Shown here in pieces: positions 3,719 through 52,446 of a stretch of DNA of 64,000 nt. The notes under the pieces were generated by a model, which worked only from the letters and a program-made list of their open reading frames with translations, made no database searches and was not told the DNA's origin. The stretch's first letter is position 1, and every line of letters begins with the position of its first letter. Position numbers and translations under genes: made by a program. This DNA is from Deltaproteobacteria bacterium (GTDB taxonomy: Bacteria; JAGRBM01; JAHCIT01), in assembly GCA_026129095.1 (NCBI GenBank), contig JAHCIT010000003.1, positions 310,001-374,000 of the forward strand. The letters are read 5' to 3'.

Positions 3719-4633
3719 CTACTTCCCGTTTCCCGCCTCATCCTCGTCCTCATCATCATCCGTTTCCGGATCAGGCACCGCATCCGCGCCTTCCGGCAGC
3801 GCCTCGCGACGGGGCCGAACGCCCGAAACGAGCCACATGAACAGCTGAACCCCCGCATAAAAGTACATCATGCTGAACAGCATCAGTTCCGTATAAAGGA
3901 AAATGGCCGCCAGGAGGACGATGAACACCGGCAGCACGATGAAGGGCTTCTTGTCCTTCAGGTTGATGTCCTTGAAGGTCCGGAACGGCACTTCGCTCAC
4001 CATCATGAACCCGCAGAAAAACGTGAGTCCCAGGAAAAACGGGTGCCGGATCGTTCCCTCGATCGAGATGATCCCGAACAGGCTTTCGAAAAACTCCGGA
4101 TACTTCGTATGCAGCAGCACCGGGGTCATCATGAGGCCGGCTGCCGCCGGTGACGGCGTGCCGAGGAAATAGACCGCTTCGGTTTTTTCCTCCGCCCCCA
4201 CGTTGAACCGGGCCAGGCGGATCGCCGCGCACGCCACGTAGACGAAAGCCGCCACCCACCCCCACTGCCCGTAGGAACGGAGCACCCAGTGGTAAACCAG
4301 CATCGCGGGGGCGATACCGAAGCTGATAAGGTCGGCCAGTGAGTCGAGGTTCATGCCGAAAGCGCTTGTGGTCTTGGTCATGCGCGCCACGCGGCCATCC
4401 AGCATGTCGAAAATGCCGGCGATCACGATGGCCCAGGCCGCCTCGCGGAAGCGGAGGTCCATCGACGTCATGATCGAATAGAACCCGGCGAACATCGCCG
4501 TGGTCGTGAAGATCGCCGGGACGACATAGATCCCGCGTTGCCGGGCGGCCGAACTGATCCGCTGCCGGCGGCGGCGCAGCGCCTGGAGCGGCCCGCCCCC
4601 GGTGGCGGGGGCCTGTCCTGTCGCTTCGGCCAC
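3719..4633 (-). CDS. pssA: CDP-diacylglycerol-serine O-phosphatidyltransferase
   Basis: Makes phosphatidylserine from CDP-diacylglycerol and L-serine, the first step to phosphatidylethanolamine, in the inner membrane. The CDP-alcohol phosphotransferase signature DGxxAR-x8-GxxxD-xxxD is intact (D79-G80, A83-R84, G93, D97, D101). Several hydrophobic helices follow, and the C-terminal 25 residues are strongly acidic. The start is GTG 4633, preceded by a good GGAGG. It is the last gene of the minus-strand run ribH-nusB-ilvC-pssA; ilvC next to a phosphatidylserine pathway gene is an arrangement also known from Geobacter-type genomes. A decarboxylase (psd) is not visible in the window. Confidence 0.95.
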   Translation of the reverse strand: MAEATGQAPATGGGPLQALRRRRQRISSAARQRGIYVVPAIFTTTAMFAGFYSIMTSMDLRFREAAWAIVIAGIFDMLDGRVARMTKTTSAFGMNLDSLADLISFGIAPAMLVYHWVLRSYGQWGWVAAFVYVACAAIRLARFNVGAEEKTEAVYFLGTPSPAAAGLMMTPVLLHTKYPEFFESLFGIISIEGTIRHPFFLGLTFFCGFMMVSEVPFRTFKDINLKDKKPFIVLPVFIVLLAAIFLYTELMLFSMMYFYAGVQLFMWLVSGVRPRREALPEGADAVPDPETDDDEDEDEAGNGK

Positions 4634-4693
4634 GGTGATCCCTCCAGATGTGGACAGGGAGTATAACCTATCGGTCCCCGACAGGAACCATCC

Positions 4694-5719
<1,026 letters not shown>

Positions 5720-43566: not shown

Positions 43567-44937
43567 CTACCCCGCCTCGTACGTCTTGACCGGATGGTGG
43601 ATGCCCTTGACGGTGATTTCACCTTGGGGCTGACACTCAATCTCGTCCTTCACCAGCGCCCAGGTGGAGTGGCTCATCAGGATCCTGCCGGGAGTGCAGC
43701 TGGACTCAAGGCGGGCGGCGAGGTTCACCTGCCTGCCGATCGCCGTGTAGTCCATGCGCCCCTCGGAGCCGAAGTTCCCCACGGTGGCGACACCGGTATT
43801 GATGCCGATCCGGATCTGGAACGGGTTTTCGATCCCCTCGTCCGACCACTTGCGGGCCAGTTCCCCCATGCGGGCCTGCATCTCCAGCGCCATGCGGACG
43901 CACCGGAGCGCATGGTCGCGGTCGTCGGTGGCCGCCGGCGCGCCGAAGAAGATCATGATCGCATCGCCCACGAACTTGTCCAGCGTCGCGCCGTACCGCT
44001 CGGCGATGGCCGACATTTCGTAAAGGTATTCGTTCAGCACGCGGGAGAGGTCCTCGGCCTCCAGCTCGTCGCTGGCGTCGGTGAACCCCTTGATGTCAGA
44101 GAAGAACAGCGTGAGCTTGCGCCGCTCCCACTTGCCTTCGTGCTCAAGGTCGCCGGAGAAGATCCGCTCAGCAAGCTGCCTGGGCACGTAGCGGCGGATG
44201 AGATGGGCCGCCTCCTCCATCCGGGTGTTGGAGGCGCGGAGCAGGACGTGGGCCTCGGCCAGTTCCTCCTCGCGGCTCCGCCAGTGGTGGAAGAAGTAGC
44301 CGAACAGGACCATCGTGAGCAGCGTCATGAATATCGAGAGCGGCCAGCTCACCAGCAGCCAGTTCAGCAGGAGCTTGCCGTCGCGGACCGCCACCACGTT
44401 GAAGAACGGCGCGTAAGGAATCATCCCGTTCCACGCGGCGGTTTCCAGGAGAATCCCGATCCCCACGAACGTGCTCATGCCGAGCAGTGTCGGGAACCAG
44501 CCCAGCACAAGCACACCACCGATGGCCCCCGTCACCGACACGAAACCGAGCATGAGGCTCGTCGTGGGACCGAAGGCGTAGCAATGGACGGCGAACGTGA
44601 ACCCCCACACCTGGCAAACCAGATGCGCCCAGAGGCGGCTTTCGGGAAACCGGTTCCGCAAGGCAAAGCTGGCCACGGCCAGCAGGCCCCATATCCCCAC
44701 GAACAGCCCTGTCCAGAACCGGGCGGTCTGGATCACAGCCTGATCGGCTTCGGACAGCTCCATCACCCGGAGGCCGGGTATGGCATTGAGCAGGATGAAC
44801 CGGCCGAATGCCCACCAGCCGGTCAGGATCAAGGCCACCGGCCAGCACCGGTCGGCCTGGCTCCAGTCGAGCGGTATACCGATCCGGTCCACCAGACGGC
44901 CCAAATGGCCGGGCCCGTTCTTTGAGGCTTCGGACAT
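43567..44937 (-). CDS. Membrane adenylate/guanylate cyclase with PYAP sensor module
   Basis: A 456-residue protein from ATG 44937 (GGGGA upstream). A six-span membrane module (about 30-220) has RIGIPLDWS at its start and GMIPYAPFF at 171-179, leading into a signalling helix (HHWRSREEELAEAHVLLRAS), then a class III cyclase domain (about 265-455) with metal Asp in LFFSDIKGFTDA (about 279) and KFVGDAIMIFFGAP (about 324), and IGINTGVATVGNFGS with YTAIGRQVNLAARLES. The module is shared with kinases at 49612 and 51037. A longer frame to 45345 is antisense to the next gene and not used. Predicted product is cAMP or cGMP. Confidence 0.9.
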   Translation of the reverse strand: MSEASKNGPGHLGRLVDRIGIPLDWSQADRCWPVALILTGWWAFGRFILLNAIPGLRVMELSEADQAVIQTARFWTGLFVGIWGLLAVASFALRNRFPESRLWAHLVCQVWGFTFAVHCYAFGPTTSLMLGFVSVTGAIGGVLVLGWFPTLLGMSTFVGIGILLETAAWNGMIPYAPFFNVVAVRDGKLLLNWLLVSWPLSIFMTLLTMVLFGYFFHHWRSREEELAEAHVLLRASNTRMEEAAHLIRRYVPRQLAERIFSGDLEHEGKWERRKLTLFFSDIKGFTDASDELEAEDLSRVLNEYLYEMSAIAERYGATLDKFVGDAIMIFFGAPAATDDRDHALRCVRMALEMQARMGELARKWSDEGIENPFQIRIGINTGVATVGNFGSEGRMDYTAIGRQVNLAARLESSCTPGRILMSHSTWALVKDEIECQPQGEITVKGIHHPVKTYEAG

Positions 44938-48770: not shown

Positions 48771-49568
48771 ATGAGCGTTTACAGCAAGCCATCAAGAAAG
48801 GGCGGCCTGTTCAGTGATCTCGGCAAATACCGCGAGATGCTGTTCTCGCGCAGCAGCATGCTGCCAGACGGGATCATGGACCGGCTCCTGTCAGCGAAGA
48901 ACCTGCTCGTCACCATCGACAACCCGTGGAACTCCGACATCGAGCAGGGGATCAATGCGCTCATCAATACCACCCTGTCCAGAAATCCCGTGAGCGACGC
49001 TGAGGTGGCCTCAAAGGCGCACCCCGCCCTGTGGTCAATGTACAAGGAGCGGTACGATCCGCCGGTCGATCTTGCCCGTCTGGAGAAGCTCCCCGACGGC
49101 ACCCTGGGACGAACCTACGCCCGGTTCATGTCGGACAACGGCATCCAGCAGCTGCAAAGCATGGTAAAAATCCGGCAGCCCCGGAACTTCAGCGAATGGG
49201 TCATCCGGCGGGCCTACAAGCTGCACGATGTAATGCACGCCATACTGGGCTGCGACGCCGAGATCATGGGGGAAGTCAGGATCAATGCATGGTCGGCCGG
49301 TCAGGCGATGGCGGATGCTACGCTTCAGGGAAAAGGCCGCCAGGGAGCCGGCTCTCATGGGTTCATGGGTGTTGGCGTGCTTCTCATGCACGTCGCCTAC
49401 AAGCGCGGGCAGGATTTCCCCGAGGCTCTCTCGCTTGCCGTCGAGTGGCTGGAGCGCGGCAGGAAGGATCCGTTCCACATACCGCTCAAGGTCGAGGAGC
49501 TGTGGGAAATGCCCCTTGGCGATGTGAGGGAGTTCTACCGGTCCGGGCGGTTTCTAGCAGCAGACTAA
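48771..49568 (+). CDS. Coq4-family protein
   Basis: A 265-residue protein with the signature of the Coq4 family (ubiquinone-biosynthesis scaffold / C1 decarboxylase in eukaryotes). The zinc motif HDxxHx11E is intact: H152-D153-x2-H156-x11-E168, in KLHDVMHAILGCDAEIMGE, and LEKLPDGTLGRTYARFM matches the family's conserved region. ATG 48771 is behind AAGGAG. It is divergent from a TetR regulator. No other quinone-biosynthesis gene is adjacent, so its physiological role here is open. Membrane association as in Coq4 is inference. Confidence 0.88.
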   Translation: MSVYSKPSRKGGLFSDLGKYREMLFSRSSMLPDGIMDRLLSAKNLLVTIDNPWNSDIEQGINALINTTLSRNPVSDAEVASKAHPALWSMYKERYDPPVDLARLEKLPDGTLGRTYARFMSDNGIQQLQSMVKIRQPRNFSEWVIRRAYKLHDVMHAILGCDAEIMGEVRINAWSAGQAMADATLQGKGRQGAGSHGFMGVGVLLMHVAYKRGQDFPEALSLAVEWLERGRKDPFHIPLKVEELWEMPLGDVREFYRSGRFLAAD

Positions 49569-49611: not shown

Positions 49612-51030
49612 CTACGCCGCGAGTTCCTCCTGGCCAGCCGCACTGCCAAGGGGGATATCCACCGTTACGGTTGTACCGCGCCCCTCCTCACTGTCGAGAC
49701 CGATACTTCCTCCAGCCCGGTGCACAAGTTCGTTTACCACGTACAGACCCAGGCCGACATTCCCGCTAGCCCCCTCACCCGTAATGAATGGCTTGAAGAT
49801 CTCTGCCTGGAGTGCCTTTGGAATGCCCCGGCCCGTATCTGAAATCTTCAGCCGGAGCGAATGGCCATGTAATGATGCCGCGAGCCTGGGTTCCTGTGCG
49901 CCGCCTGCTCCACGGGCATTATCCAGCAGGTTCCGGAGCATGGTGAGTGTCATCCGCTCATTGACGGGAGCCTGGTCCACGCCCGCCTCCGTATGAACAG
50001 CAATACCGGGATACTCGGACCGGATCGTGTCGAGGATAGTGGACAACGGCCGCGACGAGTCTTCAGGAGCCAGCAGGTCGGCCAAAAGATACAAACGGCT
50101 GGCAATATTCGCCGCCCTCGCCTGCCCTGACAGGCAACTATCAATGCTTTGCAGGACTTCCCGCTTCTGGGAAGCCGTGGCACCCGACTGCTCGACATCC
50201 TCCTTCAGCATCTGGAACAAGGCCCCGCTGGATGAAAGCGGGTTCCGGAGCTCATGGGCGGCACCCGTTACCAGCGAACCCATCGCTGCCAGCGACTCGG
50301 CACGCACCAACTGGTCCTTCTGTTCCCGAAGGAGTGCGTATGCCGCTTTCAACTGCTCCTCCCGCTTTCGCCACTGTTCGACCAGATATATCGCAAAGAC
50401 GAACATACTGAGCTGGAACACCGTTACCCAACTTCCCGTGAACAACAGCCAGGAAGAGTGAAGCCTTCCGTCAATCACCAGATCGTCCCGCATTAGCGGA
50501 GCGTACGGGAACCACCCAAACTGCGAACCCGCAATGGAAATCGCCTGGAATGAGACGCCCGTAACAACCGCATAAACAACCGGACGGATTCCAAACAGCA
50601 GCCCGCCCAGGAGCACTCCTGATATTCCAAACAAGACCGCATAGGGAGTGGTGAACAGCCCGAAACCGTGTGCCGCCAGCATGGTATGAACGGTGCATAG
50701 CTGAATGACTGTATGCATCATCACTGTTTCGAGAGATTTCACCTTGCGCACCGCAAAACAGATCATCGCCAGAACTGCCCATCCGGCAATGAACCCCATC
50801 TCGATCTGGTCGGCGACATGTGCCGCAGCCGGTTCAAGATATGGTGCCCGCAAGGGATCAGCCAGCAACCATTTGAACATCAACCCGTGCGCACCCGAAA
50901 GACCGAGACAGATCACCGAAGCCAGCGCCGTCCGGTCCCCGAGGCTCCACTCCAGCAGGTTGCTGAACTTCTGGCTAACCCCATCAAGAAACGACTTCCC
51001 GCTGAAAGCGGCTTTCGAAACACCACTCAT
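49612..51030 (-). CDS. Sensor histidine kinase with PYAP membrane module
   Basis: A 472-residue kinase (ATG 51030; GTG 51033 one codon earlier is possible). A six-span membrane module (about 28-220) contains TVHTMLAAHGFGLF and GSQFGWFPYAPLMR (motif PYAP), then a cytoplasmic helix (QWRKREEQLKAAYALLREQK). HisKA-like region with H259 in LVTGAAHELRNPLSS, and HATPase with N box LRNLLDNARGAG, G1 SDTGRGIPK and G2 NVGLGLYVVNELV. It is 6 nt downstream of its paralogue at 51037, so the pair is probably cotranscribed. No response regulator is nearby. Confidence 0.9.
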   Translation of the reverse strand: MSGVSKAAFSGKSFLDGVSQKFSNLLEWSLGDRTALASVICLGLSGAHGLMFKWLLADPLRAPYLEPAAAHVADQIEMGFIAGWAVLAMICFAVRKVKSLETVMMHTVIQLCTVHTMLAAHGFGLFTTPYAVLFGISGVLLGGLLFGIRPVVYAVVTGVSFQAISIAGSQFGWFPYAPLMRDDLVIDGRLHSSWLLFTGSWVTVFQLSMFVFAIYLVEQWRKREEQLKAAYALLREQKDQLVRAESLAAMGSLVTGAAHELRNPLSSSGALFQMLKEDVEQSGATASQKREVLQSIDSCLSGQARAANIASRLYLLADLLAPEDSSRPLSTILDTIRSEYPGIAVHTEAGVDQAPVNERMTLTMLRNLLDNARGAGGAQEPRLAASLHGHSLRLKISDTGRGIPKALQAEIFKPFITGEGASGNVGLGLYVVNELVHRAGGSIGLDSEEGRGTTVTVDIPLGSAAGQEELAA

Positions 51031-51036
51031 CACCCG

Positions 51037-52446
51037 TCACATCCCATGCGGTGCTCCATCTACGGGAAGCAGTATTGAAACCGAAGTGCCGCGGCCTGCC
51101 TGGCTTTGCAGATCGATGGTCCCCCCGGCCCGATGGACCAGTTCATGAACGATGTACAGTCCAAGCCCCAATCCGTGTCCCTCACCAGCCTTCTGTCCGG
51201 TAAAAAACGGCTTGAACACCTCGCTTTGCATCGCCTCCGGGATTCCTCTCCCCGAATCACTGACCCTGATATCCAGGAAGCGATCCGCCAGCGACGCCAC
51301 AACCCTCGGCGGCGTGTCCCCACCTGCGGCAACTGCGTTCTTCAGAAGATTCCGGAGAACCGTTGCAACCAGCCGTTCATTGACTGGTACCGAAGCTGCC
51401 TGCGGCGATACCTGAAATACAGATTGCGGGTAGTCGCTCCGGATAAGGTTCATGACCGCATCCAGTGGATGGCTTTCACCCCCCGGAGCAAGCGCTTCTG
51501 CGATCGAGTTCAGCCTGCCAGCAATATCCGCTGCACGCTCATGCCCTTTCAGCGACATCTCGACAATCCGCAGCGCTTCCGATTTCTGGGATTCGGGAGC
51601 ATCTGATGCGGCGATATCTGTCCGGAGCTTCTGGAAACTCGTCCGGGCGAAATCGAGCGGACGCTGCAACTCCCTGGCCGCTCCCGATACCAGTGAACCG
51701 ACCGCCGCAAGCGATTCGGCCCTGACCAGCTGGGTTTTCTGCTCACGCAGCAGCACGTATGCAGCCTCAAGCCGTTCCTGCCGGCCTCTCCACTGGGACA
51801 GGATGTAGAGGCCGACCACCATCGTCGCAACCTGGCAAATCGTCACCCAGCTACCTGTCAGGACGAGCCAGGAAACCGGGAGGCGTTCATTAATGACCGG
51901 AGTTCCACGCAATAACGGAGCATAGGGGAACCAGCCGTTCTGGCTGCCGATGGTCGACAGGACCTGGATCGCGACCCCCGTCAGCACGCCATAACTCACT
52001 GGCCTGACGCCCATGAGGAGCACGCCCAGCAGCATTCCACACACACCGAAAAGAACCCCATAGGGCGCAGTGAACAGCCCGAAGGCATGTCCAACCAGCA
52101 TGGTATGCACGGTGAAAAGCTGGGCCGTCAGGTATACCAGCGGCTGGCCAAGAATCCGGAGCCTGTCAGACCGCGCCGCCAGGCAAATGCCCAGGAATAC
52201 GGCCCATATCACAACGAATGCGTTCTGGAGATTTCTCGCAAATAACGCCGCCTGAGGTTCCATGTACGGAGCCCGGGACGAATCCTCGACAAGCCAGTAA
52301 AAATATACCGCCCAGGAGAACGCAAGACCGAGACAGGTCCCGCAGGCAAGCGCCGCCTTGCCGGCAGGGCTCCACTCCAGCGGATTACCAATCCGCTGGA
52401 TCAGGGAGTCAACTGCACCTGATGAAGCTGACGGCTTTTCGGGCAT
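51037..52446 (-). CDS. Histidine kinase paralogue lacking the phospho-accepting histidine
   Basis: A 469-residue protein, ATG 52446. Same plan as its neighbour: RIGNPLEWS start, TVHTMLVGHAFGLF, WFPYAPLL (PYAP at 174-177), then WRGRQERLEAAYVLLREQK. But in the H box GAARELQRPLDF, the histidine is replaced by arginine (codon AGG, R258) and R-N-P becomes Q-R-P. The ATPase part is complete (LRNLLKNAVAAG, SDSGRGIPEA, GHGLGLGLYIVHEL). So it can probably bind ATP, but cannot autophosphorylate in the usual way. It may heterodimerise with the intact kinase downstream, as its transmembrane partner or phosphorylation in trans. Confidence 0.88.
   Translation of the reverse strand: MPEKPSASSGAVDSLIQRIGNPLEWSPAGKAALACGTCLGLAFSWAVYFYWLVEDSSRAPYMEPQAALFARNLQNAFVVIWAVFLGICLAARSDRLRILGQPLVYLTAQLFTVHTMLVGHAFGLFTAPYGVLFGVCGMLLGVLLMGVRPVSYGVLTGVAIQVLSTIGSQNGWFPYAPLLRGTPVINERLPVSWLVLTGSWVTICQVATMVVGLYILSQWRGRQERLEAAYVLLREQKTQLVRAESLAAVGSLVSGAARELQRPLDFARTSFQKLRTDIAASDAPESQKSEALRIVEMSLKGHERAADIAGRLNSIAEALAPGGESHPLDAVMNLIRSDYPQSVFQVSPQAASVPVNERLVATVLRNLLKNAVAAGGDTPPRVVASLADRFLDIRVSDSGRGIPEAMQSEVFKPFFTGQKAGEGHGLGLGLYIVHELVHRAGGTIDLQSQAGRGTSVSILLPVDGAPHGM

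Follow-up and report, generated by a model that had tools for sequence, protein, structure and literature searches.

The principle of a split histidine kinase, with kinase function and phosphate acceptor on separate proteins, is already known. In Rhodobacter sphaeroides, neither CheA3 nor CheA4 autophosphorylates alone, and together they do so (PMC3591291). For FasB and FasC of group A Streptococcus, two-hybrid evidence points to a heterodimer and not to a homodimer, and in the model of this pair the catalytic ATPase (CA) domain of FasB phosphorylates H246 of FasC, the CA domain of FasC itself being dispensable (PMC12675982). Split kinases are predicted to permit ultrasensitive or bistable responses (PMC3591291), and membrane-bound examples therefore matter for circuit logic.

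Kinase-like proteins with a replaced acceptor have also been described, and approximately 1% of histidine kinases carry a substituted acceptor, Arg included (PMC5361649); a His-to-Arg exchange by itself is rare but already known, and not new. DivL has the histidine-kinase fold with Tyr in place of the acceptor and modulates the kinase CckA (PMC5361649, PMC4211667). In the chloroplast sensor kinase CSK, the acceptor His is replaced and ATP binding is retained (PMC5054060). RetS acts on GacS partly via its HExxT phosphatase motif (PMC5992135). Only a small number of bacterial two-component pseudokinases have been investigated. The tandem membrane kinases described in the present study differ from these systems in form, showing reciprocal point-level degeneration of tandem paralogues and true replacement of the acceptor in another setting.

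Results

The window analyzed here, a stretch of 64,000 nucleotides from the Deltaproteobacteria bacterium assembly GCA_026129095.1 (contig JAHCIT010000003.1, positions 310,001 to 374,000 of the forward strand), carries two adjacent kinase paralogues, R and H, the features of which are collected in Table 1.

Table 1 Coordinates of the R and H genes and their motifs in the window
Feature	Coordinates	Strand	Basis or remark
R, protein with 6-TM sensor, DHp and HATPase_c domains	51037..52446	-	ORF/translation, Pfam, AF2, Foldseek
R N-terminal 6-TM sensor and signalling helix, residues 23-236	51739..52380	-	
R H box GAARELQRPL, residues 255-264	51655..51684	-	
R N box NLLKNA, conserved Asn370	51334..51351	-	
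R G1 box DSGRGI	51241..51258	-	
R F box VFKPFF	51202..51219	-	
R ATP lid and G2 box GQKAGEGHGLGLGLYI	51151..51198	-	family-typical
R stop/H start junction TGACGGGTGATG	51028..51039	-	
H, adjacent paralogue with acceptor His259	49612..51030	-	start GTG 51033 or ATG 51030
H H box GAAHELRNPL	50236..50265	-	CAT at 50254-50256
H ATP lid and G2 box GEGASGNVGLGLYV	49738..49779	-	

The R reading frame starts with ATG and encodes 469 aa. The first-pass annotation had reported that the H box of R differs from that of its neighbour, that more than one base change is needed to turn CAT into AGG, and that all ATP-binding motifs are retained in R. Translation and codons (AGG against CAT) bear out the difference, three base changes are required, and the N, G1, F and G2 boxes are all present, the last reading GLGLGL, within a Pfam HATPase_c match of 82 bits (cut-off 26.4). 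Arg258 (AGG codon, 51673-51675, minus strand) occupies the acceptor-His position, and the sequence found there in H and four other family kinases is GAAHELRNPL. The loss in the DHp domain is wider than first described, since five residues invariant in H and in these four family members are changed in R (H258R, R261Q, N262R, S266F and S267A), and not the His alone. With Arg at H+4, R lacks the Asn/Thr phosphatase residue of the HExxN/T motif; with Arg258 in place of the acceptor and no Pfam HisKA match, it has no acceptor histidine in the H box. H302 of helix 2 was considered as a substitute acceptor and is unlikely to serve as such, since two family members in which the canonical His is intact have it as well.

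The AF2 model of R, obtained with moderate confidence (pLDDT 76, pTM 0.44), contains a DHp hairpin and an alpha/beta CA fold, and Foldseek assigned it to the histidine-kinase fold (best match ZraS 9jfj, 7.5e-12). ZraS/AtoS-type kinases gave the best sequence and structure matches to the DHp and CA domains of R (AtoS and ZraS models; ZraS 9jfj) but, unlike R, retain the acceptor and have other sensor domains.

The unusual H box is the only one of its kind in the kinase sets examined. In this genome of 3.67 Mb (23 contigs), HATPase_c was located at 48 places, and in a genome of the same order at 45. Among the 69 DHp-CA domains fetched from these two genomes in which the H-box position could be aligned, His was found at the acceptor position in 68, R being the sole exception, and a separate motif scan covering 45 of the 69 agreed with this count. 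R was likewise alone among the 69 in having Arg at H+4.

R and H are 50-51% identical (51% in the sensors), and H gives Pfam matches to both HisKA (28.5 bits) and HATPase_c. The ATP lid of H is two residues shorter than in the family and the first Gly of its G2 box is replaced by Asn; the N, G1 and F boxes and two of the three G2 glycines are retained. Of the 75 domains of the two genomes with a residue at the first G2 position, 12 have one other than Gly, among them a family member with Ser, and the idea that the Gly-to-Asn exchange abolishes the kinase activity of H was dropped on account of these 12 domains. Since the core motifs are kept and other kinases lack Gly at this position, H may autophosphorylate alone.

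R lies upstream and H downstream on the same strand, with 3-6 nt between the R stop and the H start; this junction and order are consistent with a single transcript, on which R would come first. No response-regulator gene lies immediately beside the pair, the flanking genes encoding a Coq4-family protein, a short protein without a Pfam family and a GSDH/TIG-domain protein. The Coq4-family gene (48771-49568, plus strand) is convergent with the H gene.

The main new evidence obtained in the present study is that R and H diverged reciprocally: in R it was the DHp domain that changed more quickly, in H the ATPase domain. This pattern favours a division of labour between them. The two proteins are sisters relative to four kinases that share their architecture (two from this genome and two from the same-order genome, 32-39% identical to R), which served as outgroups. 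At the sites invariant in all four, DHp helix 1 (22 sites) contained five R-only and no H-only changes, and the CA domain (32 sites) contained no R-only and six H-only changes, with both proteins differing at two sites (Fisher test, 5:0 against 0:6, p = 0.002). The H-only CA changes comprise V to I twice, deletion of a lid Lys, two lid substitutions and His to Asn (R position 434), of which the two V-to-I changes are conservative and three that adjoin the lid may represent one event. Maximum-likelihood branches agreed in direction, being 0.56 for R and 0.31 for H in the DHp domain, and 0.31 for R and 0.80 for H in the CA domain; in the sensor (R 0.54, H 0.37), the asymmetry was not significant. 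A per-column sign-flip test of similarity to the outgroups gave p = 0.003 for DHp, 0.014 for CA and approximately 1e-4 jointly, and a joint p = 0.015 with both the H box and the lid removed, all p values here being indicative only because the partition was picked after the alignment had been viewed and the outgroups number only four. With profiles built from other kinases of both genomes, H scored higher in the DHp domain (59 against 39 bits for R) and R in the CA domain (116 against 99 bits for H), where the score of R ranks second among the six family kinases.

A search of 40 relatives and of the phylum (represented by 2 genomes) gave no R orthologue; His is present in the nearest family members found there. 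GTDB contigs, scanned with single proteins and with a profile, revealed no full-length relative, the seven matches of the profile scan covering a short linker/H-box stretch only. In one genome (G001), contigs C333 and C401 stop just past the kinase genes and C624 stops before the H box, and a second tandem gene is possible there. R is therefore a single case in a single genome, and with no orthologous pair found, selection is not measurable across species or via parallel cases.

Another asymmetric arrangement was observed in the same sensor family of this genome. A 643-aa protein (G000:C1:3197-5128, plus strand) consists of two tandem halves, each with a sensor and a DHp domain, and has no ATPase domain. 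Its first half reads AAAHELGNPL and its second ELIPKLLGPL, which lacks His; the HisKA score of the one His-bearing DHp domain, 24 bits, is just under the Pfam cut-off. Each half has the other as its closest match; of the six kinases, those bearing His are nearer to the first half, and R is the best match of the second. Judging by these sequences, an asymmetric pair of His-bearing and His-less DHp domains has evidently arisen at least once more in this genome, by another way.

Discussion

We consider it an even call that R and H are a duplicated pair subfunctionalised into a heterodimeric, or split, histidine kinase, the heterodimerisation and catalysis being predicted from sequence. As in a split kinase, the candidate donor R lacks the acceptor and keeps its CA domain, and its partner H keeps the acceptor. 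A purely structural partner is not expected to keep all the catalytic CA residues, so that heterodimer subfunctionalisation is the simplest reading. R, encoded first, would then be the ATP-binding donor subunit without an acceptor, and H would contribute the acceptor His259, the residues for phosphatase action and the face on which the response regulator docks, its own ATPase domain being partly dispensable. In the R:H dimer, the catalytic domain of R would phosphorylate His259 of H in trans, as the model requires, and the phosphate would then pass from H to a putative unlinked response regulator. R:R dimers would be silent, and H:H dimers would act as weak kinases or mainly as phosphatases.

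The first-pass annotation had considered R as an ATP-binding pseudokinase that could work as a regulatory heterodimer partner of an active paralogue. Sequence, gene order and rate asymmetry all agree with an acceptor-less R with intact ATP motifs beside an acceptor-bearing H and with H as its plausible partner; the regulatory emphasis is probably misplaced. Conservation of the ATPase domain is higher in R than in H, where this domain has drifted, and R is for this reason the likely donor; it probably resembles a catalytic subunit and not an inert regulator. A more far-reaching version, in which reciprocal point degeneration of the tandem duplicates produced an obligate heterodimeric membrane kinase with R as donor only and H as acceptor/phosphatase only, is put forward tentatively, with somewhat less than even expectation. 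If true, such an obligate R:H kinase would be a natural counterpart of the heterodimers of complementing mutants made in the laboratory, and its family would also hold a single-chain protein that joins His-bearing and His-less DHp domains. Where one copy has suffered the loss and the complementary domain has drifted in its neighbour, the combination offers a simple sequence test for distinguishing a catalytic half from an inert regulator.

Among the described systems, FasB/FasC resembles R/H in that two 6-TM kinases are encoded by one locus, a likeness of architecture and model. However, the FasB DHp domain keeps histidines H241 and H284, whereas R has Arg at the acceptor position, and the FasB/FasC locus includes the response regulator FasA, whereas none is linked to R/H. 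CheA3/CheA4 shares with the proposed R/H kinase the separation of kinase function and acceptor, but these proteins belong to the CheA class, have lost whole domains and are proteins of a cytoplasmic chemotaxis cluster, whereas R and H are paralogous membrane sensors that have lost point residues.

The alternative that R is an allosteric pseudokinase, pairing with H or another kinase and setting conformation through ATP binding with no phosphate transfer, is possible although rather unlikely. Proteins that act without an acceptor provide its precedents, namely DivL, with Tyr for His, and chloroplast CSK, with Glu, Gln or Tyr for His, which binds ATP; the source passages describe no acceptor-bearing partner paralogue for this chloroplast protein, whereas R has H. 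RetS tunes GacS by several routes, and conformational action is conceivable for R as well, but phosphatase action of the RetS type is unlikely, since the HExxT motif is absent and the H+4 residue is lost. The sequence pattern in R is, moreover, opposite to that of DivL, which has lost kinase catalytic functions and senses a response regulator, whereas R keeps the CA motifs and has lost DHp surface residues, including S266 and S267 behind the H box. The ATPase domain of DivL is reported to be unneeded and the ChrS variant lacks a working CA domain, whereas the CA domain of R has no private change at outgroup-invariant sites, beside a drifted CA domain in H, and this strict conservation suggests catalysis.

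It appears improbable that R, as a true kinase, phosphorylates a third protein, such as the double-sensor protein described above or the DHp domain of another paralogue. Having one His-bearing DHp domain and no HATPase match, the double-sensor protein would depend on another kinase acting in trans. Its His-less half is closest to R among the six kinases, and a donor kinase of the R type could have this protein as its acceptor. However, it is genetically unlinked and only 23-31% identical to R and H, whereas H lies next to R and is far more similar to it. R might instead be a non-functional or decaying duplicate whose CA domain has not yet had time to degrade. This reading would fit the occurrence of R in a single genome, with no orthologue found, and yet is very improbable: after divergence to approximately 50% identity from H, R still has an intact frame, normal codon-position GC and the second-best CA domain of six, and a neutral duplicate of such age is not expected to keep a better CA domain than its active sister. 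That the H box of R was misassembled or misread is a negligible possibility, since five clustered in-frame substitutions, with three base changes in the key codon, an intact reading frame on both sides and normal codon-position GC, do not form the pattern of such an error.

The 6-TM sensor domain that R shares with H is apparently undescribed. In R, it is modelled as a six-helix membrane domain (AF2 pLDDT 89), for which no Pfam family and no significant PDB fold match were found. The alignment of 17 proteins (with window parts 51739-52380, 50317-50961 and 44200-44937) contains the motif xIPYAPL. The domain is expanded in the order of R, where it also occurs, here and in the same-order genome, on GGDEF and PAS-GGDEF-EAL proteins and on further kinases; among 290 genomes searched in all, it was found in 3 of the 288 others, once each, on proteins of GGDEF type as read by eye from translations. 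The same sensor is present in a class III adenylate/guanylate cyclase (43570-44937, minus strand) approximately 5 kb from the kinase pair. Additionally, a same-sensor kinase with 39% identity (4125-5543, minus strand, of piece G000:C4:74000-84000) lies among large genes of the opposite strand which, by eye, look like phage head/terminase genes.
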